DNA of 49,265 nt from a virus: IMG/VR virus record IMGVR_UViG_3300032289_001775, positions 1-49,265 of that record. The stretch is one strand, 5' to 3'. A program made the translations under genes and the position numbers. Under the pieces are notes generated by a model that saw nothing but the letters and a program-made list of their open reading frames with translations, ran no database searches and was not told where the DNA came from. Within the stretch, counting starts at the first letter, position 1. Every line of letters begins with the position of its first letter. Shown in pieces: positions 19,093 to 49,265 of this stretch.

Positions 19093-20238
19093 TCACACCC
19101 CCAGGTCGTCGCTCACCCGCGCCACCGCCGCACGCGCCGCATCGTCCACCAGGTGCGCGTACCTCGTCGTCGTCTGCGCGCTCCGGTGCCCCAGCAGCTG
19201 GCCCACCACGCCCAGCGTCTGCCCGCCGCTCAGCGCCATCGACGCGAACGTGTGCCGCAGATCATGCACCCGCAGGCCCTCGATCCCCGCGTCCTCCAGC
19301 AGCGCCAGCCACAGCTTCCTGTACCCCACCAGCGGCTTCTCCCCGCTCTCCCCCGGCACCACCCACCGGCCGCCGCCGGCCGCGGCCTCCAGCTCCCGCA
19401 GGATCGCCATCGCACGCTGCGCCAGCTGGATCTCCGCCGCCCCAGTCTTCCCCCTCGACGCCGGCACCCGCAGCACGCCCCGGGCCCAGTCGATCTCCGA
19501 CCACTCAGCGTTCATCACCTCCCGCAGCCTGGCCCCGGTGAGCAGCAGCAGCCGCACCAGCTGCGCGAACCGCCACCGCATCGACAGCGGCCCCTGGGCC
19601 TCCCACTGCTGCAGCGCAGCACGCAGCCGCGCCAGCTCGTCCGCGCTGGCGTACCGCCGCCGCTGCCGCTCCGGGTGCGCCTTTACCCCACGGGCCGGGT
19701 TACTCCCCCCCGCACGCCAGCCCCAGTCCTCGGCCAGGCGCATCGCCACCGCGAGCACCTCCAGGGCCCGGTTGGCGGTCGCCGGCTGGGGATGGCAGGC
19801 GTGCCACTCGCGCACCTGCTCGCGGGTGAGGGCAGCCACGCGCACGCGGGCGAAGGCCGGCAGCAGGTGCCGCCGCCACAAGATCTCATCGTTGCGGCCG
19901 GATCGCTTCCGGCTGGCGTGGGCCTGCAGGTGGCGGGCGGCGAGGGCCTCGATCGTCGGTGCCACCCTGGCGGCCCGGCGCTCGGCCCCCGGGTCCCCGC
20001 CGGCGCGCACGCGCGCGAGGGCGGAACGGGCCAGCTCTCGCGCTTGGTCGGGGGTGAGCTCCGCCGGGGTGCCCAGCTTCAGCTCCCGCTGGGCCCCGTC
20101 GACTCGATGGCGCAGGTAGTAGGTGCGGGCCCCCGAGGGCAGCACCAGCAGGCAGAGGCCGGGCACCAGGCTGTCGTTCAGGCGGTAGCGCTGGGCCTGG
20201 GGCCGGCCGGCCTCGACAGCGGTCTTCGTCAGCTTCAT
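19093..20238 (-). CDS. int: Tyrosine integrase
   Basis: A 381-aa phage integrase (a GTG six bases earlier is also possible). It has the DUF4102-like N-terminal arm-binding domain (LVPGLCLLVLPSGARTYYLR; LGTPAELTPDQARELARSAL), a SAM-like core-binding domain and the C-terminal catalytic domain. The catalytic set is present: Arg in LLTGARLREVMNAEW, Lys in SRGKTGAAEI, HDLRHTFAS, GHRSAQTTTRYAHL (His and Tyr nucleophile). It recombines attP with attB. The tRNA-fMet gene and an inverted repeat lie 180-290 bp upstream of its start, the expected place for attP. Confidence 0.95.
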   Translation of the reverse strand: MKLTKTAVEAGRPQAQRYRLNDSLVPGLCLLVLPSGARTYYLRHRVDGAQRELKLGTPAELTPDQARELARSALARVRAGGDPGAERRAARVAPTIEALAARHLQAHASRKRSGRNDEILWRRHLLPAFARVRVAALTREQVREWHACHPQPATANRALEVLAVAMRLAEDWGWRAGGSNPARGVKAHPERQRRRYASADELARLRAALQQWEAQGPLSMRWRFAQLVRLLLLTGARLREVMNAEWSEIDWARGVLRVPASRGKTGAAEIQLAQRAMAILRELEAAAGGGRWVVPGESGEKPLVGYRKLWLALLEDAGIEGLRVHDLRHTFASMALSGGQTLGVVGQLLGHRSAQTTTRYAHLVDDAARAAVARVSDDLGV

Positions 20239-20362
20239 TCCCACACCGTTCCCACAAGATCCCGAGACCGGGAGGGATACCCGAGGATCGGCCGGTAGTC
20301 CATCCCCAGCAGAATCAAGGCTCAGTGATGCGACGGGATGCCACGGTAGGGCAGAGCGTCAT

Positions 20363-20454: not shown

Positions 20455-20531
<77 letters not shown>

Positions 20532-23453: not shown

Positions 23454-24911
23454 TCACGCCGCCACCGGCGGCTGCCGGCGCGTGCGAGTGGACTTGCGCC
23501 GGAGCTTCTCCGGCAGCACCAGGCCCTTGATCCGCGCCACCCTGGCATTCAGGGCCGCCCAATCCTCCTGGTCCTTAAACCTGAAGTGGCCGGTGCCTTT
23601 CTTGAACAGCTTGAACTCGAAAAAGCCCCAGTCGTACCACTGGCCGGCGGTTAGCCTGTCCCAACCGGCGGCGGGCGTCATCACCTCCTCGTACTTCCGG
23701 CCGGTGATGTAGCAGATGGCCTTCACCAGATCCTGAACCTTCGGCCGATTGCCGCCCCACTTCATGCTCACGGTGCCGCCACTCCAGTCCGGCTCAGCCA
23801 GGTAGGGCACGATGAACTTTTGATTGAACAGGTAGGCGTCATTCGTCGCCCACCCTTCCACGTTCCAGCGGTTCTCCTTCGTGTGCCGCGTCAGCTCATC
23901 GAACGCTGCCTCCACAGCGCGGTCGATTCGCTGCTCGGTGGTGCCGGCGATGATCTGCAGCATCCTGAACAGGTTGCGCTCGGTGAACGGCACGGTCACC
24001 TGCTGCTCCACGAACCGGTTGATGTCGCGCTGCAGCTGGCTGGTGGCCATCTCCTGCGGCAGCATCTCGGCGATCACCGACTCCCAGAACGACTTCTGCA
24101 GCTCCTTCCTGAAGCGGTTGCGGCTAGCGGTGCAGCCATGCATCGTGATCTGGAGGCCCAGCTCGCCCTTGTAGATGCCGCCCACCTGGGCCTGCAGCCG
24201 CACGCCGGCCTCCAGCTGCTGGTCGTAGATGCGGCAGGCCTCGACGTAGCGGTTCACCAGGTCGCGGCTGCGGCGGTAGCGGATCAGGCCCTCACCCTGG
24301 GCCTCGATGTCGTCCGGGCCCAGGAAGAACCCGTCGAACTCATCAGCACCGCTTACACGTTGGCCGGGCTTGGTGAGCCGCACCAGGCCGATCTCGCACC
24401 GCGTCGTGCGCTCGGCGCCCTCGAACACCGGTCCGAGGTTCTGGCTGCTGCCGTACTGCTCGATCAGCGTGCGGAGCTCCTGTTGCTGCCGCCGCCAGTT
24501 CCGGTCATCAAGACTGCGGCAGCTGCGGCTGTCGAGAATGGACGCGTTGCACAGGCTCACGATCTGGCAGCCAGCGGGGGCCACCGCCCAGGCGTGCAGG
24601 ATGTGGCGTTCGTCCGCCGAGAAGGGCGGGTTCATCACCACCAGGTCGGCGTGGCTGATCTGCTCAGCGGTGACCTGCAGCCAGTCGCTGCCGATCAGCC
24701 TGCAGTCGCCCTGAATGCCGGCAAGGATGGCCCGCAGCTTCGGCTCGGGCTCCACCATCAGCACCTCGGCAGCACCGCGCTCGAGGGCCGCCTGCACCAG
24801 GTTGCCGGTGCCGGCGCTGGGCTCCACCACCACTCGACCCCTGAGATCGAGTGGGTCGAGCATGGTGGCCGCCACCTCAGGCGGGGTCGGAAACAGCTCA
24901 GGGTTGAACAT
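23454..24911 (-). CDS. DNA adenine methyltransferase with DUF4942
   Basis: A 485-aa protein. The N-terminal 200 residues are a class I SAM methyltransferase: SAM-binding VVVEPSAGTGNLVQ (about 28-41), acidic MVEPEPK, and catalytic VVMNPPFSADE (NPPF at 94-97), the motif of N6-adenine enzymes. The C-terminal part (about 235-470) fits DUF4942: FTERNLFRMLQIIAGTTEQR, then WNVEGWATNDAYLFNQKFIV and a GWDRLTAGQWYDWG end. No restriction partner is nearby, so it is probably an orphan phage methylase. It would add a second DNA modification beside the deazaguanine system. Confidence 0.85.
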   Translation of the reverse strand: MFNPELFPTPPEVAATMLDPLDLRGRVVVEPSAGTGNLVQAALERGAAEVLMVEPEPKLRAILAGIQGDCRLIGSDWLQVTAEQISHADLVVMNPPFSADERHILHAWAVAPAGCQIVSLCNASILDSRSCRSLDDRNWRRQQQELRTLIEQYGSSQNLGPVFEGAERTTRCEIGLVRLTKPGQRVSGADEFDGFFLGPDDIEAQGEGLIRYRRSRDLVNRYVEACRIYDQQLEAGVRLQAQVGGIYKGELGLQITMHGCTASRNRFRKELQKSFWESVIAEMLPQEMATSQLQRDINRFVEQQVTVPFTERNLFRMLQIIAGTTEQRIDRAVEAAFDELTRHTKENRWNVEGWATNDAYLFNQKFIVPYLAEPDWSGGTVSMKWGGNRPKVQDLVKAICYITGRKYEEVMTPAAGWDRLTAGQWYDWGFFEFKLFKKGTGHFRFKDQEDWAALNARVARIKGLVLPEKLRRKSTRTRRQPPVAA

Positions 24912-34768: not shown

Positions 34769-35362
34769 ATGAGCATGGGCAAAAGCGAAGCGCCAGCAAT
34801 GGCGAAGCGTTTGGAACTGTGGCCGGTGGACCGGCTGCGGCCCTATGAGCGCAACGCCAGGACCCACAGCCCGGAGCAGGTGGCGCAGATCGCGGCCAGC
34901 ATCCGTGAGTTTGGCTTCACTGCGCCGATCCTGGTAGACGGCAACGAAGGGATCCTGGCGGGGCACGGCCGACTGGATGCAGCCAAGGAGCTGGGTCTTG
35001 CCGAGGTGCCCGTGGTTGTTCTCGATCACCTGACCGATGCACAGAAGCGGGCTTACGTGCTTGCCGACAACAAGCTGGCGCTCAACGCCGGCTGGAATCT
35101 GGATCTGTTGGCCGCCGAGATCGAGGAGCTGCGGGTCGATGACTTCGACCTGAGTCTGCTCGGATGGAGCGAGGATGAGCTCACTGCGCTGGCGGAAGAC
35201 GGCTGGGCCAGCGACATCAAAGCGATCGACAAGCACAAGGAGAACCTCGACGGCATCCAGTCCAAGATCGTTGTGAAGCTGGACGGCACCTACCGCGACG
35301 AAGTGGTGGAAGCCATCCGCATGTATTGCGACAGCCACGACATCAGTATCGAGGTGAGCTGA
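34769..35362 (+). CDS. ParB-like protein, DpdB candidate
   Basis: A 197-aa protein with a ParB/Srx-fold nuclease-like domain at about residues 10-110: DRLRPYERNARTHSPEQVAQ, then IREFGFTAPILVDGNEGILA, GHGRLDAAKELGLAEVPVVV and AYVLADNKLALNAGW. The GHGR motif (nucleotide/phosphate site) is intact. It overlaps dpdA by TGATG. In bacterial dpd clusters a ParB-like DpdB with ATPase activity works with DpdA to insert preQ0 into DNA. The neighbourhood makes the same role likely here, though this protein is short and ParB-like proteins also accompany phage methylases. ATGs at 34775 and 34799 are alternative starts. Confidence 0.7.
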   Translation: MSMGKSEAPAMAKRLELWPVDRLRPYERNARTHSPEQVAQIAASIREFGFTAPILVDGNEGILAGHGRLDAAKELGLAEVPVVVLDHLTDAQKRAYVLADNKLALNAGWNLDLLAAEIEELRVDDFDLSLLGWSEDELTALAEDGWASDIKAIDKHKENLDGIQSKIVVKLDGTYRDEVVEAIRMYCDSHDISIEVS

Positions 35363-36192
35363 TGGTGCCCCGGCTCAACGTCCTGGTGGCCTACCCCTAC
35401 ATGAGCACGCAGGTGATCGACCTGCTCAAGGGAGCAGGGCCTGCGCTGCGGTTCACACTCGACTCCGGTGCGTTCACGTCATGGAAGGCCGGCAAGCCAA
35501 TTCAGCTGGACGACTACTGCCGCTTCCTGGAGCAGCTACCGATCAAGCCCTGGCGCTATTTCACCCTGGACGTGATCGGTGACCCAGTTGGGACGCAGCG
35601 CAACTACGAGACGATGCTCAATCGCGGATTTAGGCCGGTGCCGATCTTCACGAGGGGAGAAGACCCTTCGGTGCTCGACGACTTCTACAAGACCAGCGAC
35701 GTGGTGGGCATCGGAGGGCTAGTGGGAACACCAGGCAGCCGTGGTTTCGTTAAGGGGATCATGCGTCACGTGGGTGATCGCATGGTGCACTGGCTAGGTT
35801 TCACCGACTTGGACTTCATCAAGCACTATCGGCCGTTCATGTGTGACAGCAGCAGCTGGGAGTCAGGGGCGAGGTATGGGGCCCTAAAGCTCTACATGGG
35901 CCAGGGACAGTTTAAGACCATCAAGAAAACGCAGTTTGAACAGAGACCAGAACAGCCAATTCTTGAGAGAATCAAGTGGCTTGGAGTGGATCCGTATTCA
36001 CTCGCACAGGTTAACAGCTGGCACGGCGGCTACTCTGCGTCGCGCAAGCTATGCGCCCGCAGCGCTGTCGCAATGTCAGTTGATGTCGAACGCAAACTGG
36101 GAACCAAGCTGTTCCTTGCCATTGCGGCTGGTTGCGGCCTCGACCTGGTGATTAACGGCTTCCACTATCTCTACCCCAAAACCACACCATGA
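35362..36192 (+). CDS. dpdA: DpdA-like DNA guanine transglycosylase
   Basis: A 276-aa phage DpdA-type member of the tRNA-guanine transglycosylase superfamily. Seen: FTLDSGAFTSWKAGK (Asp34 to Lys45), YFTLDVIGDP (Asp70), GIGGLVGTPGS (the TGT substrate loop), and RPFMCDSSSWESGARYG (Asp162, likely nucleophile region). The zinc-binding Cys cluster of tRNA enzymes is absent, as expected for DpdA. It would replace guanine in phage DNA by a 7-deazaguanine. The start at 35362 overlaps the ParB-like stop, and queC follows with a 4-bp overlap. Confidence 0.85.
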   Translation: MVPRLNVLVAYPYMSTQVIDLLKGAGPALRFTLDSGAFTSWKAGKPIQLDDYCRFLEQLPIKPWRYFTLDVIGDPVGTQRNYETMLNRGFRPVPIFTRGEDPSVLDDFYKTSDVVGIGGLVGTPGSRGFVKGIMRHVGDRMVHWLGFTDLDFIKHYRPFMCDSSSWESGARYGALKLYMGQGQFKTIKKTQFEQRPEQPILERIKWLGVDPYSLAQVNSWHGGYSASRKLCARSAVAMSVDVERKLGTKLFLAIAAGCGLDLVINGFHYLYPKTTP

Positions 36193-36854
36193 AAGCAGTC
36201 GCCATCGTTTCCGGTGGGATGGACAGCGTAACGCTGGCCCACTGGCTCAAAGCACAGGGCTACCAACTGGAGCTGGTGAGCTTTGACTATGGGCAACGCC
36301 ACCGCCGTGAACTTGAGTGCGCCAAGCATCAGGCAAAGCTGCTGGATGCTGAGCACACGATCATCGACATCAGTGGCATCCGTCCGCTGCTCAAGGGCTC
36401 CTCGTTGACCGACGATGTGCCGGTGCCCCATGGCCACTACGCCGAGGAGTCGATGCGACTCACAGTGGTGCCCAATCGCAACGCCATCATGCTGTCGATC
36501 GCATGGGGCCTGGCATGCTCAAGCGAGGCCGACGTGCTTGCCTGCGGCGTTCATGCTGGCGACCATTTTATCTACCCTGACTGCAGACTTGAGTTTATCG
36601 AGCAGCTCAATCTGGCGCTGCGCACGGGCACAGTGGGCCACCGCAAAGAGAGTCTCGAACTGATCGCCCCGTTCGTACACCACACCAAAACCGACATCGC
36701 CGGCATCGGTGGCAGCCTTGGCGTGCCCTTCGAACACACTTGGACCTGCTACGAAGGCGGCGAGGTGCACTGCGGCAAGTGTGGCAGCTGCACGGAGCGG
36801 AAAGAAGCCTTCCGCGATAGCGGTGTGCCCGATCCCACCACCTACGCCGCTTGA
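36189..36854 (+). CDS. queC: 7-cyano-7-deazaguanine synthase QueC
   Basis: A 221-aa QueC that converts 7-carboxy-7-deazaguanine to preQ0 using ATP and ammonia. It has the PP-loop SGGMDSVTLAHWL (residues 8-20), FDYGQRHRRELE, VVPNRNAIMLSIAWG, and the zinc site CYEGGEVHCGKCGSC (Cys187, 195, 198, 201). No glutamine amidotransferase domain is fused to it, so the end product is more likely preQ0 than archaeosine-type G+. All catalytic parts are intact. Confidence 0.96.
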   Translation: MKAVAIVSGGMDSVTLAHWLKAQGYQLELVSFDYGQRHRRELECAKHQAKLLDAEHTIIDISGIRPLLKGSSLTDDVPVPHGHYAEESMRLTVVPNRNAIMLSIAWGLACSSEADVLACGVHAGDHFIYPDCRLEFIEQLNLALRTGTVGHRKESLELIAPFVHHTKTDIAGIGGSLGVPFEHTWTCYEGGEVHCGKCGSCTERKEAFRDSGVPDPTTYAA

Positions 36855-36857
36855 CCC

Positions 36858-37523
36858 ATGACACCATCTGTGAACATCCGCCAGCGCCTCGTGGAAGCCG
36901 GCGCATCGTTCCTGGCGAACGACAACATTGCAGCCCACATCGAGCCTGGCGAACTCGAGCTTCTGGAGGCTGAGGTAGCGCAGTGTGTCGAGCACTTGCT
37001 GCGTGCCCTTGTGATCGACGTGGACAACGACCACAACACCAGGGGCACCGCCGAGCGCGTAGCCAGGATGTATCTGCGCGAAGTGTTCGCCGGTCGGTAT
37101 CACCAGCCGCCCCGGCTCACCGACTTCCCCAACGCCAAGCAGCTCGACCAGGTCTACACCGTGGGCCCAATCACGGTCCGCAGTGCCTGCAGCCACCACC
37201 TGGTGCCAATCCTGGGCCGGTGCTGGGTGGGGATCAAACCGAGCGAGCGGGTGATCGGCCTGTCGAAGTTCGTGCGCCTGGCAGAGTGGGTATTCAGCCG
37301 CCCCCACATCCAAGAAGAGGCGGTGATGATCCTGGCCGACGAGATCGAACAGCTGGTAAAGCCCCGGGGTCTCATCGTGATCGTGGACGCGCAGCACTAC
37401 TGCATGAAGTGGCGCGGCGTGCGCGAGCCGAACACCTCGATGGTCACCAGCGTGGTGCGCGGTGAGTTTCGCGACAAGCCTCACATGAAAGCCGAGTTCC
37501 TTCAGCTCATCGGACTTAAATGA
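36858..37523 (+). CDS. folE: GTP cyclohydrolase I FolE
   Basis: A 221-aa type I GTP cyclohydrolase, the first step of the preQ0 path (GTP to dihydroneopterin triphosphate). Zinc ligands and active-site residues are present: SACSHHLVPILGR (Cys111, His113, His114), IGLSKFVRLAEWVFSRPHIQ and QHYCMKWRGVREPNTSMVTS (Cys182). The domain is of full length (RGTAERVARMYLREVF start). It lies 3 bp after queC and overlaps queD by 4 bp. Confidence 0.96.
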   Translation: MTPSVNIRQRLVEAGASFLANDNIAAHIEPGELELLEAEVAQCVEHLLRALVIDVDNDHNTRGTAERVARMYLREVFAGRYHQPPRLTDFPNAKQLDQVYTVGPITVRSACSHHLVPILGRCWVGIKPSERVIGLSKFVRLAEWVFSRPHIQEEAVMILADEIEQLVKPRGLIVIVDAQHYCMKWRGVREPNTSMVTSVVRGEFRDKPHMKAEFLQLIGLK

Positions 37524-37969
37524 CGTTCACATCGACCAAGACCTGGGGCCACGATGTTGGCCTGTCCGCGTGCTTCAGGCAGTGGCGCAGCACCCACAGT
37601 CACTGCCGGTTCCTGCATGGCTACGCCCTATCAGTGCATCTGAAGTTCGAGGCTGACGATCTGGATGAGCGCAACTGGGTTGTCGATTTCGGCAGCATGA
37701 AGGATCTCAAGTCGTGGCTGCAGCGCACCTTCGATCACAAGACCGTGGTGGCCGAGGATGATCCCTGCCTGGAGTGGTTTCACCGTGGTCATGAGCAGGG
37801 CATGCTCGATCTGGTTGTGGTCCCGGCGGTGGGCTGCGAACGGTTTGCCGAGCTGGTCTGGGCCCAAGCCAACGTCTGGCTGCAGAACAACGGCTACGCC
37901 CCCCGCTGTCGGGTTGTGGAAGTCGAGGTGCGCGAGCACGGGGCCAACTCCGCCATCTACCGACCATGA
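37520..37969 (+). CDS. queD: 6-carboxytetrahydropterin synthase QueD, divergent
   Basis: A 149-aa QueD-family protein (dihydroneopterin triphosphate to CPH4). The catalytic Cys29 (SHCRFLHGY), Asp72-His73 (RTFDHKTVV) and C-terminal Glu (VEVREHG) are kept. Two zinc ligands of the family differ: the HGH pair reads HGY (His33, Tyr35) and the first His (AAHR in typical enzymes) reads ACFR. Extra His residues (THSHC, GHDVG) may replace them. The divergence is probably shared by a phage branch. It is coupled to folE and the next gene by 4-bp overlaps. Confidence 0.88.
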   Translation: MTFTSTKTWGHDVGLSACFRQWRSTHSHCRFLHGYALSVHLKFEADDLDERNWVVDFGSMKDLKSWLQRTFDHKTVVAEDDPCLEWFHRGHEQGMLDLVVVPAVGCERFAELVWAQANVWLQNNGYAPRCRVVEVEVREHGANSAIYRP

Positions 37970-38349
37970 AGCATCTCACCTGGGCTGACTTCAACGAGGC
38001 GGTCAGGAAGATCGCCGCCGACCAGCAGGGCCGTGGCCACACCGGCGTCTATGGCTTCCCGCGTGGGGGTCTGTGCCTGGCGGTGGCGCTGAGCCACCAA
38101 CTGCGCCTGCCGCTGCTTATAGAGCCGCAAGATGGCTGCCTGGTGGTGGATGACATCTGCGAGACAGGTCACACCCTGAAGCAGGTCGAACACCTGCGCG
38201 ACTACGAGGTGGTGGTGTGGATCAGCAAGCAGCACCCAACATGGTTCCGTGCTGTGGAGGTGATCGACTCACCTGAGTGGATCGTTTTCCCCTGGGAAGA
38301 CCCCGGTGCCGCTGTCGATGATGAGGAGGCCTACCGTGCTTCGCGTTAA
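37966..38349 (+). CDS. Gpt-like phosphoribosyltransferase
   Basis: A 127-aa type I phosphoribosyltransferase. GVYGFPRGGLCLAVALSHQL (about 27-46) gives the PRPP loop with RGG, and CLVVDDICETGHTLKQ (about 58-73) the PRPP-binding motif with Asp62-Asp63 and the TGHT loop. The end, WIVFPWEDP, resembles the WIEQPWD end of xanthine-guanine PRTases (Gpt). It sits inside the preQ0 operon with ATGA overlap to queD and 14-bp overlap to queE. A role in salvaging guanine released by DpdA, or in handling a deazaguanine base, is inferred. Confidence 0.8.
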   Translation: MKHLTWADFNEAVRKIAADQQGRGHTGVYGFPRGGLCLAVALSHQLRLPLLIEPQDGCLVVDDICETGHTLKQVEHLRDYEVVVWISKQHPTWFRAVEVIDSPEWIVFPWEDPGAAVDDEEAYRASR

Positions 38350-38992
38350 TGAAATCTTCCCCACCATCCAGGGCGAAGCCTGCTGGACTGGGATGCCTGC
38401 TACCTTCATTCGCCTCCAGGGCTGCCCGGTGGGGTGCAGCTGGTGCGACACAAAGCACACCTGGCCCGAGGGCCACGAGCGCAAGCGCATCACCATCCCA
38501 GAGCTGCTGGAGAAGGATGACCCAGCAGCGACCTGGGCGGAGATGAGTCCCGAGCAAGTGGTGGAGACAGTGCGGCCCATGGCCCCTCGGCACTTCGTGA
38601 TCACCGGTGGCGAACCGCTGGCGCAGAACATCTGGAACCTGACGGCTCAGCTCCTTACCCTGGGCACCGTGCAGGTTGAGACCAGCGGCACCCATGCGGT
38701 GAGTGTGGCACCAGGCACCTGGGTGACCGTGAGCCCAAAGCTGAACATGGCGGGCGGGCTGGAGGTGCTGGAGCAGGCGCTGAACCAAGCCAGCGAGATC
38801 AAGATGCCCATCGAGAGCCAGGGCGACATCGACAACCTGCTCACCTTGCTAGAGGACCGCAACCCCAAGGGTTCGGTATGGCTTCAGCCCGTCAGCCAGG
38901 ACGATGCCGCCACCGAGCTGTGCGTCAAGGCGTGCATGGAGCACGGCTGGCGCCTGTCCATCCAGACCCACAAATACGCAGGGGTGAGATGA
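38336..38992 (+). CDS. queE: 7-carboxy-7-deazaguanine synthase QueE
   Basis: A 218-aa radical SAM enzyme (CPH4 to 7-carboxy-7-deazaguanine). The cluster motif is CPVGCSWC (Cys30, 34, 37), preceded by EIFPTIQGEACWTGMPATF, and VITGGEPLAQN (SAM-binding GGE) is also present. The GTG at 38336 is chosen over an upstream GTG because GAGGAGG ends 6 nt before it. Its end overlaps a 40-codon ORF by ATGA. Confidence 0.95.
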   Translation: MLRVNEIFPTIQGEACWTGMPATFIRLQGCPVGCSWCDTKHTWPEGHERKRITIPELLEKDDPAATWAEMSPEQVVETVRPMAPRHFVITGGEPLAQNIWNLTAQLLTLGTVQVETSGTHAVSVAPGTWVTVSPKLNMAGGLEVLEQALNQASEIKMPIESQGDIDNLLTLLEDRNPKGSVWLQPVSQDDAATELCVKACMEHGWRLSIQTHKYAGVR

Positions 38993-39111
38993 CCGACCCT
39001 CCCACACTCCAACTCACCTGGGCGGGCTTTGAGGCTGCTGTGGATCTGATCGCCGCGCAGTGCCGGTGGCGTGATCGCGCCGGCATCGCCGTTTGTTCCG
39101 GGGTTCGATGA
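38989..39111 (+). CDS. 40-aa ORF resembling the PRTase N-terminus
   Basis: The peptide has LTWAGFEAAVDLIAAQ at residues 9-24, close to LTWADFNEAVRKIAAD at the N-terminus of the phosphoribosyltransferase upstream. It ends before any PRPP motif. It may be a truncated duplicate or a separate small protein sharing this helix. Both ends are coupled (ATGA). Confidence 0.4.
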   Translation: MTDPPTLQLTWAGFEAAVDLIAAQCRWRDRAGIAVCSGVR

Positions 39112-39386
39112 TTGAGGTGGCGAGCATCCGCTATGGCTGCAGCTGGAGGCCCGATGGCCACGTGAGGGGCTGGCCGATGCGGATCGAGTTCGGTGCGGTG
39201 GGCCCTGAGGTGACTGTTGACGAGATGCTCGAGGGCCGCGGCCATGCGGTGCTGCTGATAGACCAGCTGGTGGCGCTGGTGCGCGGGATGACTGGCCTTG
39301 ATACGCCGATCAAGCTGGTGCAGCCAGTGCCTGCAGGATTGGCTTTGAAGCTCCACAATGCCGGGTTCTATGTTGCGTTGTGCTGA
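39108..39386 (+). CDS. Hypothetical protein before terS
   Basis: A 92-aa protein, alpha/beta in pattern: SIRYGCSWRPDGHVRGWPMR, then HAVLLIDQLVALVRGMTGLD. No known family. It is coupled to the small ORF upstream and overlaps terS, so it links the modification operon to the packaging genes in one transcript. Confidence 0.5.
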   Translation: MIEVASIRYGCSWRPDGHVRGWPMRIEFGAVGPEVTVDEMLEGRGHAVLLIDQLVALVRGMTGLDTPIKLVQPVPAGLALKLHNAGFYVALC

Positions 39387-39937
39387 TCTCTCCGGACGAG
39401 TACGCGAAGCAACGGAACGTGAGCGGCCGGGCGGTGCGCAAGGCGATCGCCACCGGCCGTCTGGTGAAGGGTGCACACAGAGAAGGCGGGCGGTGGAAGA
39501 TCGACCCGGCTGTGGCCGATCAGGAGTGGCAGCGCAACACGGCGCCGCAGTTCCAGCGGGAGAACAAGGGGGGCGGGCGCGCCAAGGGCCAGGGCGGGGG
39601 CGCCCCTGCTGGGCCGCCCCCGGGCAGCGGCGGGGAGACGCCCAAGGTGCCAAGCCAGGCACAGGCCGCGGCCGTCCGCACCATGTATCAGGCGCGCCTG
39701 CTGGAGCTGGATCTCAAGGAGCGCCAGGGCCTGCTGGTGCCGAAGTCGGAAGTGGAGAAGGTGTGGTTCGAGGAGGGCCGGCGGGTGCGTGATGCAGTGC
39801 GGCGGTCTCCACAGCAGATGATCGGCGACATCGCGCGGGCCGTCGGGGGGCTGAACCAGGAGCAGCGCGCGGAGGTGCTCTTGATCATTGAGCGCCATCT
39901 GGTGAAGACGCTGGAGGGCCTGGCCGGTGCTGATTGA
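39380..39937 (+). CDS. terS: Terminase small subunit
   Basis: A 185-aa Nu1-like small terminase begun at GTG. The winged HTH is at the N-terminus: DEYAKQRNVSGRAVRKAIAT, then GAHREGGRWKIDPAVAD. A Gly/Pro-rich linker (about 65-90) and a C-terminal helical part (YQARLLELDLKERQGLLVPK) follow. It recognises the packaging site and binds the large subunit encoded next (11-bp overlap). Confidence 0.87.
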   Translation: MLISPDEYAKQRNVSGRAVRKAIATGRLVKGAHREGGRWKIDPAVADQEWQRNTAPQFQRENKGGGRAKGQGGGAPAGPPPGSGGETPKVPSQAQAAAVRTMYQARLLELDLKERQGLLVPKSEVEKVWFEEGRRVRDAVRRSPQQMIGDIARAVGGLNQEQRAEVLLIIERHLVKTLEGLAGAD

Positions 39938-41840
39938 GGAGTGCCGCGCGGCGTTCCGTCGTGGGATGGAGCCGGACCCACTTCTGACGGTGAGCGAGTG
40001 GGCGGATCAGCGGCGGGTGCTGAGCGCAAAGGCGAGCAGCGAGCACGGCCCATGGCGGACGGCACGGACGCCGTACCTGCGCAAGCCGATGGATGACCTG
40101 TCGGCGACGAGCGCGGTGCAGGAGGTGGTGATGGTGTTCGGTGCACAGACGGGCAAGAGCGAGAGCCTGAACAACTGGATGGGCTACACCATGGACATCG
40201 CACCAGGGCCTGCGCTGTTCGTGCAGCCGACGATCGACCTGGCGAAGCGCTATAGCAAGATGCGCATCGCGCCGATGATCGAGGCAAGCCCAAGCCTGCA
40301 GGAGAAGGTGGCGGCCCCGCGCGAGCGGGACTCGGGCAACACGATGCTGATGAAGGAGTTCGTCGGCGGCTTCCTGATCCTGGGCGGTGCCAATGCAGCG
40401 AGCGGCCTGGCGTCGATGCCGATCCGCTACCTGGGCGGCGACGAGATCGACCGCTGGCCGGCGGACGTGGACGAGGAAGGAAATCCTCTGTCGATCGTCG
40501 AAGCCCGGACGCGGACGTTCGGTGTGCGTAAGAAGATGGCGTGGACGAGCACGCCGACGATCGCGGGGCGGAGCGCGATCTGGTCGAAGTGGGAGACGAG
40601 CAACCAGCAGCGGCTGCTGCTGCCCTGTCCGCACTGCGGGCACCGGCAGATGATCGAGTGGGAGCGGATCCGCTACGACCCGAAGGACCCGGGCCTGCCG
40701 AGCACGCTGCGGCAGCCGCCGGTGCTGATCTGCGAGCAGTGCGGCGAGGGCATCGAGGAGGACACGAAGGCCTGGTGGTATGACCCAGAGGTGTTCGACG
40801 ACGACTGGTGGGAGCCTCTGTTCCCTGATCGCCAGGTGCAGGGCTATCACCTCTCTGGCCTCTACAGCCCCCTCGGCTGGTTCAGCTGGGCAGAGGCAGC
40901 GGTGGGCTACGAGAAGGCGAAGGACAACCCAGCAGACCTGAAACCGTGGACGAACACGGTGCTGGCTGAGTGCTGGAACGACGACGGCGAAGCGCCGGAC
41001 TGGGAGGCGCTCTACAACCGCCGGGAGCTCTACCAGCTGGGCAGCGTGCCTGATGGGGTGGTGTTCATCACCTGCGGGGTCGACGTGCAGATGGACCGCC
41101 TCGAGCTGGAGGTGGTGGGCTGGGGTCCGGGGATGGAGAGCTGGAGCCTGGACTACCAGGTGCTGGCTGGCGACACTGCTCAGCCGAGTGTGTGGCGCGA
41201 GCTGTCGGCGTTCGTGCGCAGCGAGTTTGGCCGTGGTGATGGGCAGCGGCTGCCGATCCGGATGACGGCGATCGATTCGGGCTTCAGGAGCCAGGAGGTC
41301 TACAGATGGGTGCGAAGCCAGCCGGGCAACCGTGTGATCGCGGTGAAGGGCGGGCCGGACAGCCAGACGTCGATCATCGGCACGCCGGGGCGCGTGGAGG
41401 TGCTGCGGAACGGGAAGGCGCTGAGGGGTGGCGTGAAGGTGTGGCCGGTGGGTGGCAGCACGGCCAAGAGCGAGCTCTACGGCTGGCTGCGGCGGGGCCT
41501 ACCGGACGAGGGCGAGCCGTTGCCGCATGGCTGGTGCCACTTCCCCCAGCACGGCGAGGAGTGGTTCCGGCAGCTGTGCGCGGAGCGGCTGACGAACACG
41601 ATCGACCGGCGAGGTTACAACCGATTCGAGTGGGTGAAGACCAGGCCGCGCAACGAGGCCCTGGACTGCAGGGTGTATGCTCGGGCCGCGGCGGCGCTGG
41701 TCGGTGCGGATCGGTGGGGCGACGAGCGGTGGGAGATCGAGCGGAGCGGCGGGGTGGAGCGTGAGGAGCGGCGGCCGGCTCCGGTGCGGCAGCAGGAGGA
41801 GGCGCGGCCGGCGAACACGGGGAGCAGCTTCTGGGACTGA
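39927..41840 (+). CDS. terL: Terminase large subunit (GpA family)
   Basis: A 637-aa lambda GpA-type terminase. The ATPase has VVMVFGAQTGKSES (P-loop, Lys77) and IRYLGGDEIDRWP (Walker B, about 165-177). A zinc-ribbon insertion is present (LLPCPHCGHRQMIEW...CEQCGE). The nuclease part has CGVDVQMDRLELEVVGWG, TAIDSGFRSQEVYRW and DCRVYARAAAALVG. GpA relatives usually cut at cos sites; a cos site could not be located here. The start is a GTG. Confidence 0.94.
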   Translation: MLIEECRAAFRRGMEPDPLLTVSEWADQRRVLSAKASSEHGPWRTARTPYLRKPMDDLSATSAVQEVVMVFGAQTGKSESLNNWMGYTMDIAPGPALFVQPTIDLAKRYSKMRIAPMIEASPSLQEKVAAPRERDSGNTMLMKEFVGGFLILGGANAASGLASMPIRYLGGDEIDRWPADVDEEGNPLSIVEARTRTFGVRKKMAWTSTPTIAGRSAIWSKWETSNQQRLLLPCPHCGHRQMIEWERIRYDPKDPGLPSTLRQPPVLICEQCGEGIEEDTKAWWYDPEVFDDDWWEPLFPDRQVQGYHLSGLYSPLGWFSWAEAAVGYEKAKDNPADLKPWTNTVLAECWNDDGEAPDWEALYNRRELYQLGSVPDGVVFITCGVDVQMDRLELEVVGWGPGMESWSLDYQVLAGDTAQPSVWRELSAFVRSEFGRGDGQRLPIRMTAIDSGFRSQEVYRWVRSQPGNRVIAVKGGPDSQTSIIGTPGRVEVLRNGKALRGGVKVWPVGGSTAKSELYGWLRRGLPDEGEPLPHGWCHFPQHGEEWFRQLCAERLTNTIDRRGYNRFEWVKTRPRNEALDCRVYARAAAALVGADRWGDERWEIERSGGVEREERRPAPVRQQEEARPANTGSSFWD

Positions 41841-49047: not shown

Positions 49048-49265
49048 TCGCTCCGACCAGCGCACCAGCGGCGTCGGATCACCCGAGGCGACCGATCACT
49101 CCCGGCGCCTCCATAACCTCGCCCGCTACGGCGTCGTCGCCCAGGTCGACTACACCGGCGAGACCGCCGGCTTTCCCGCCATCCGCGTCGACCTCCAGGA
49201 CGGCCAGCTCCGCACCGAGTGGCTCCCCTGGTTCACGCCACGCGCCGGCGGCGATGTCGTCTGGG
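49034..49265 (+). CDS. V: Baseplate assembly protein V (spike), 5' part
   Basis: The N-terminal part of gpV: MLGLNRSDQRTSG, then HNLARYGVVAQVDYTGETAG and FPAIRVDLQDGQL. The gene continues at the start of the window (3-422) because the molecule is circular; bases 49143-49265 repeat 1-123. The complete product is about 176 aa. Confidence 0.85.
   Translation, partial: MLGLNRSDQRTSGVGSPEATDHSRRLHNLARYGVVAQVDYTGETAGFPAIRVDLQDGQLRTEWLPWFTPRAGGDVVW
49143..49265. repeat. Direct terminal repeat, right copy
   Basis: Identical to 1-123. Removing one copy leaves a unit of 49,142 bp. Confidence 0.95.

Follow-up and report, generated by a model that had tools for sequence, protein, structure and literature searches.

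The DNA analysed here is a virus record of 49,265 nt, hereafter the window, to which all coordinates refer. At 34769–38992 it carries an operon of seven intact open frames, all on the + strand, which encode in order a ParB-like protein, DpdA, QueC, FolE, QueD, a phosphoribosyltransferase (PRT) and QueE. We judge it likely that this operon is a DNA-modification system of the Rosebush/TA17A kind, by which the phage modifies its own DNA with 7-cyano-7-deazaguanine (preQ0), present in DNA as dPreQ0. FolE, QueD, QueE and QueC are the enzymes known to convert GTP to preQ0, a conversion they would also carry out here; DpdA would then swap guanine in the phage DNA for preQ0, and the resulting dPreQ0 would block some host restriction enzymes. 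Many phage DNA-modification enzymes have an accessory protein as a neighbour or fusion partner; the ParB-like protein would be the phage version of it, with a nucleotide-dependent N-domain that probably loads on DNA and a C-terminal tail that probably docks DpdA. The features that look new are the exchange of the cassette around a shared ParB, the DpdA-specific tail of that ParB, the link between PRT and FolE, and the altered QueD.

PHROGs names the seven products ParB, queuine-TGT (tRNA-guanine transglycosylase), QueC, FolE, QueD, PRT and QueE, and all four preQ0 enzymes are present in Pfam, PHROGs, NCBIfam and PDB comparisons. The ParB-like protein (34769–35362, 197 aa; ParB_N PF02195, 2.9e-8) is followed by a DpdA-family DNA-guanine transglycosylase of 276 aa (35362–36192; phrog_887, 1.5e-27), the start of which is most likely the ATG at 35362 that shares 1 nt with the ParB stop. 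QueC, the preQ0 synthase (36189–36854; PF06508, 2.4e-64; TIGR00364, above cut-off; PDB 2pg3, 2e-26), keeps the PP-loop and four Cys residues. FolE, GTP cyclohydrolase I (36858–37523; PF01227 (GTP_cyclohydroI), 5.8e-44), has CxHH and HxC positions that align with a GTP cyclohydrolase in PDB (3.7e-31), and QueE, 7-carboxy-7-deazaguanine synthase (38306–38992; Radical_SAM, 9e-7; TIGR04322, 251 bits against a cut-off of 200; PDB 6nhl, 1.9e-64), contains the radical SAM motif CxxxCxxC, its start codon being uncertain. Between these two lie a QueD-like 6-carboxytetrahydropterin synthase (37520–37969; PF01242 (PTPS), 2e-16; phrog_2389, 7e-45) and a small purine-type PRT (37966–38349; PF00156 (Pribosyltran), 4.3e-6; PDB 1vdm, a purine PRT, 7e-6). 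A preliminary description of this DNA had spoken of seven overlapping genes; the seven genes are real and open, but 3 nt lie between QueC and FolE, which do not overlap. Its statement that all catalytic motifs are kept holds for QueC, FolE and QueE and for the Cys of QueD, but not for the QueD zinc site, where two of the three ligand His residues are replaced.

DpdA homologues occur in 224 phage records (tblastn), and the protein of the window also matches phrog_7068 (1.2e-18). Its structure model is confident (predicted local distance difference test (pLDDT) of 93) and matches phage queuine-TGT/DpdA models in a fold search of BFVD (E ~1e-16). Asp34 (in DSGAF) and Asp162 (in CDSSSW) are invariant in 43 homologues and aligned across phage DpdA/TGT proteins; they are putative active-site residues, which we take to correspond to the catalytic residues of TGT. 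Profile searches of the window found no QueF (PF14489), DpdC (PF03883) or canonical TGT, and no amidotransferase or Gat domain was seen on QueC, ArcS having had no search of its own; by published rules, this combination predicts dPreQ0 (or dADG) as the product in phage DNA (PMC6884629). dPreQ0 accounts for ~28% of G in Rosebush DNA and for ~32% in CAjan, where DpdA is needed (PMC6884629). Rosebush dPreQ0 DNA resists some restriction enzymes, but HaeIII, MluI and PciI cut it fully (PMC6884629), so that the protection from many restriction enzymes expected in the preliminary description was overstated, although resistance to some enzymes stands.

From the ParB tail onward, the operon is an exchangeable modification cassette, for which a swap between conserved arms is direct evidence. 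In the close relatives L014 and L015, TerL is 88% and 86% identical to that of the window, respectively, and blastn and alignments place the end of DNA homology at 35181/35178, inside the ParB gene, and its resumption at 38989. The exchangeable segment thus runs from the ParB tail through QueE (35182–38988, 3.8 kb; strand not assigned). In the window, the interval between the breakpoints is taken up by the ParB tail and the six dpd/que genes; in L014 it holds an N4/N6-methyltransferase domain, and in L015 a C5-methyltransferase together with a different ParB tail. The ParB N-domain and the terminase are kept across the exchange, and more distant relatives carry Mom. GC content is 61.2% at 35200–38992, compared with 66.4% for the genome. 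At the right edge, comparison with relatives identifies the truncated remnant of a degenerate PRT paralogue (38989–39087, +), which is full-length in L014, L015 and L095. According to PMC12783734, it is not known what ParB domains do next to phage DNA-modification enzymes. This locus makes their role testable, with a natural comparison provided by related phages (TerL 86–88% identical) that retain the ParB N-domain but differ in both enzyme and tail.

The ParB-like protein consists of a ParB/Srx CTPase-type N-domain (residues ~15–144) and a DpdA-associated C-terminal tail (~145–197). By sequence, the N-domain is that of chromosomal ParB CTPases (6sdk, 4e-12), and the AlphaFold2 model (pLDDT 85.5) matches ParB 7bm8 (3.6e-8) and 6sdk in Foldseek, with E values of 3.6e-8 to 6e-8. 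A ParB gene lies directly upstream of DpdA in 54 of the 67 distinct DpdA loci with upstream sequence, which, together with the gene identities, bears out the earlier proposal of a self-supplied preQ0 pathway and DpdA with a coupled ParB-like gene. Of the 13 exceptions, two are the second DpdA genes of tandem pairs (L117, L125), four belong to Queuovirinae, six are distant homologues on genome contigs and one is a weak match; three loci missed by the first ParB profile (L117, L123, L140) still carry a ParB-like gene upstream of DpdA. The tail of the DpdA-paired ParBs contains WxSDI ... NLDGI followed by a strand/helix-like stretch. Of 48 distinct DpdA-paired ParBs, 27 have strict NLDG[IL], whereas none of 98 unpaired ParBs has it; this is an association rather than an independent test, the motif having been defined from the paired set. 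Residues 151–160 of the model, around the tail motif, are of low confidence, which is compatible with a flexible docking tail.

Other members of the ParB family are paired with other enzymes. IMG/VR contains 71 distinct ParB relatives in this comparison. In 37 of them an N4/N6-methyltransferase is part of the same protein; the gene that follows encodes an SPPC-type C5-methyltransferase in 11, Mom in 5, DpdA in 4, a radical SAM protein in 2 and a PAPS-reductase-like protein in 1. These classes are defined by short sequence motifs, with Pfam confirmation on single examples (N6_N4_Mtase, DNA_methylase, Mom (3e-52) and PAPS_reduct). Terminase genes are within the fetched stretch in 62 of the 71. 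Some of the C5-type loci also hold a second methyltransferase, which we take to be CmoA-like. Such loci match the CmoX systems, beside which ParBc domains of stated unknown function have already been described (PMC12783734). On balance we lean towards a role for the ParB-like protein as an adaptor for DpdA. A wider scheme, which we would back only with reserve and which is doubtful as a whole, is that the ParB N-domain is a shared nucleotide-gated DNA clamp of the terminase region, that the enzyme (N4/N6- or C5-methyltransferase, Mom or DpdA) is swapped together with a matching tail, that the DpdA of this clade depends on the clamp, and that a dedicated PRT recycles guanine.

The same survey contains several unusual loci. 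Tandem pairs of DpdA genes follow a single ParB gene in L117 (4998–6646) and L125 (3850–5876). A radical SAM protein follows ParB in L044, L084 and L085, at the position where other phages carry DNA-modification enzymes, and is a candidate for a new modification. ParB with a methyltransferase domain precedes an enzyme dependent on pyridoxal phosphate in L024, L037 and L040, a candidate hypermodification cluster, and L037 and L040 additionally carry a QueE-like radical SAM protein. A PAPS-reductase-like gene is flanked by two ParB-like genes in L087 (2135–3726). What looks like a ParB–DpdA fusion in L100 is not one: a frame shift falls within the ParB tail, and another frame contains a separate ParB stop and DpdA start.

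Several observations weigh against a dPreQ0 system with a ParB-assisted DpdA. DpdA has no Pfam TGT match, and a fold search of PDB with its model gave nothing with E <0.001, only generic barrel-like and Rossmann-like matches. QueD keeps one of the three His residues of the canonical zinc site (GHR is replaced by CFR, and HGH by HGY). No ParB gene adjoins DpdA in the Queuovirinae CAjan, PaMx25, VpKK5 and R7M, and the 9g DpdA by itself puts some dPreQ0 into plasmid DNA (PMC6884629). ParB is thus not needed for every DpdA, since CAjan DNA contains dPreQ0 and 9g DpdA is active alone, both without a known ParB partner, and any ParB dependence of DpdA would be lineage-specific.

The QueD zinc site also bears on whether the pathway is complete. 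The CAjan and PaMx25 proteins retain the zinc-ligand His residues. The His replacement is common to the whole clade (the window, L003, L006, L013, L098 and L109), and the match to the NCBIfam QueD equivalog model is weak (37.9 bits against a cut-off of 89), both of which would suit a partly degenerate pathway in which loss of the zinc site has inactivated QueD and the phage draws on host QueD or host preQ0. We regard such degeneration as unlikely: QueD is conserved within the clade (53–92% identity), with Cys29, Asp72-His73 and Glu139 kept, and the frames are intact throughout, which suggests selection. The roles given here to these QueD residues, and to the zinc-ligand His residues, are putative. 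The que gene names recall queuosine, and a tRNA role was proposed by the authors of the cyanophage Pan1 report for a similar gene set (PMC9837993), but it is extremely improbable that the present genes act in tRNA queuosine formation or in host metabolism instead of modifying DNA: the genome was found to contain neither canonical TGT nor QueF, its transglycosylase belongs with the phage DpdA proteins, and homologous operons yield dPreQ0 in DNA (PMC6884629).

Two further alternatives concern the ParB-like protein. The preliminary description took it for a candidate DpdB; with DpdA it would then make up a minimal unit for ATP-driven insertion, on the pattern of bacterial dpd clusters. The ParB-like gene does adjoin DpdA and is coupled to it, and a ParB/Srx-like G-x-x-R is present in both the ParB-like protein and DpdB and forms the main aligning stretch of the profile comparison. 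However, no match was obtained to the DpdB model NF041060 or to the PADLOC DpdB models PDLC02811/02812, although the PADLOC DpdB models, as a positive control, match genuine DpdB at 1e-152 (its DpdA partner being confirmed by PADLOC at 1e-185). In hhalign, the probability for genuine DpdB, with a thin profile of 3 sequences, is 12.9% over 62 columns around G-x-x-R, as against 97.5% for the TA17A/Finch ParB (the genuine DpdA–DpdB pairs came from 395 scanned genomes of one class, that of the Pseudonocardiaceae metagenome-assembled genome of L142). The closest families are ParB-methyltransferases. Judged by these profiles, the protein is not bacterial DpdB, and a phage DpdB–DpdA unit is very improbable. 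The other alternative is that the ParB-like protein simply belongs to the terminase region, with a role in partition, packaging or regulation unrelated to modification, and that dpdA is adjacent merely because cassettes insert there. In most relatives ParB does adjoin terS/terL, whether dpdA is present or not, and DpdA of the CAjan type works without an adjacent ParB (PMC6884629), but the Finch ParB immediately precedes DpdA at a site apart from the terminase, divergent ParBs too pair with DpdA, the special tail is common to the DpdA-paired ParBs, and most relatives are fused to or stand beside some DNA-modification enzyme. Simple co-residence therefore seems distinctly unlikely, and the adaptor role remains our preference.

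The PRT of the window is a separate gene between QueD and QueE and has an intact PRPP motif (VVDDICETGHT); it matches the xanthine PRT model NF006613 (5e-7), far below the cut-off. In 8 distinct dpdA loci (L101, L119, L123, L128, L129, L131, L133 and L146), FolE has a homologous PRT fused to its N-terminus, and among isolated phages a PRT–FolE reading region is present in VpKK5 as a single gene and in PaMx25 as two annotated genes that overlap. The PRPP motif is missing from PRT-like copies at loci that have no dpdA. Because guanine must be set free when DpdA acts, one may reasonably infer that it is salvaged to GMP and then to GTP for use by FolE. Recycling of DpdA-released guanine to GMP by the PRT is quite possible, though we stop short of calling it probable, and the PRT–FolE link proposes such a step for phage deazaguanine pathways. 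A full-text literature search returned no title or abstract describing guanine recycling by a PRT, and an earlier description may exist.

Contrary to the preliminary description, the arrangement as such is not new. The same gene set and the ParB–DpdA pairing are found in Mycobacterium phage TA17A and Rhodococcus phage Finch, and ORF1 of Mycobacterium phage CRB2, a ParB gene beside DpdA, was proposed by its authors in 2019 to be a dpdB homologue (PMC6392294). The order in TA17A is ParB–DpdA–QueC–QueD–QueE–FolE–terminase, and Finch has the same block; for Rosebush, a member of the TA17A genus (Rosebushvirus, cluster B), the order is based on TA17A and on PMC6884629. TA17A/Rosebush resemble the window in the overlapping ParB–DpdA–QueC genes, in QueD, QueE and FolE upstream of the terminase, and in the lack of an amidotransferase, but in TA17A the order after QueC is different, no separate PRT gene is annotated, DpdA is ~30% identical, and ParB is recognisable by profile only. 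CRB2 and Finch have a ParB-like gene directly upstream of DpdA together with preQ0 genes, and in Mycobacterium phage Nadezda it lies one small gene before DpdA, likewise with preQ0 genes; the sequences of these three phages are divergent, the Finch cluster is away from the terminase, and the Nadezda stretch is without an annotated QueC.

More distant systems share parts of this plan. In bacterial Dpd clusters a TGT-like DpdA is coupled to a ParB-superfamily gene, but DpdB is of another family, bacterial DpdA is longer and is not detected by profile, and DpdC (PF03883) was not found in the window, where the other Dpd proteins were not searched one by one. Profile comparison of phage with bacterial DpdA gave no significant similarity, so that the link between them is limited to short motifs. 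Queuovirinae (CAjan, 9g, PaMx25, VpKK5) have DpdA and the preQ0 pathway for DNA modification, with a PRT–FolE reading region in several; CAjan, PaMx25, VpKK5 and R7M differ in the lack of a ParB beside DpdA noted above. Phage ParB-methyltransferases and ParBc–CmoX systems combine a homologous ParB N-domain with a modification enzyme, as neighbours or as a fusion, often next to the terminase, but this enzyme is a methyl- or carboxymethyltransferase rather than DpdA, and the ParB tail differs (PMC12783734).

The window has a 123-bp exact direct terminal repeat (1–123 = 49143–49265, by self-comparison) and probably spans an entire genome that is either circularly closed or terminally repeated, the record itself stating no completeness. 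A tail sheath gene indicates a contractile-tailed phage. Downstream of the operon are the genes for the terminase small subunit (39380–39937, +; phrog_57, 1.9e-24) and the GpA-type terminase large subunit (39927–41840, +; PF20454, PF05876). The phage had been described as temperate, in agreement with a tyrosine integrase gene (19093–20244, −; phrog_1, 5e-63; PF00589, 7e-20) that adjoins a tRNA-Met gene at 20455–20531, a possible attachment site. In the early region, an open frame at 23454–24911 (−) combines a methyltransferase-like N-terminal part with DUF4942 and may encode a second DNA methyltransferase.

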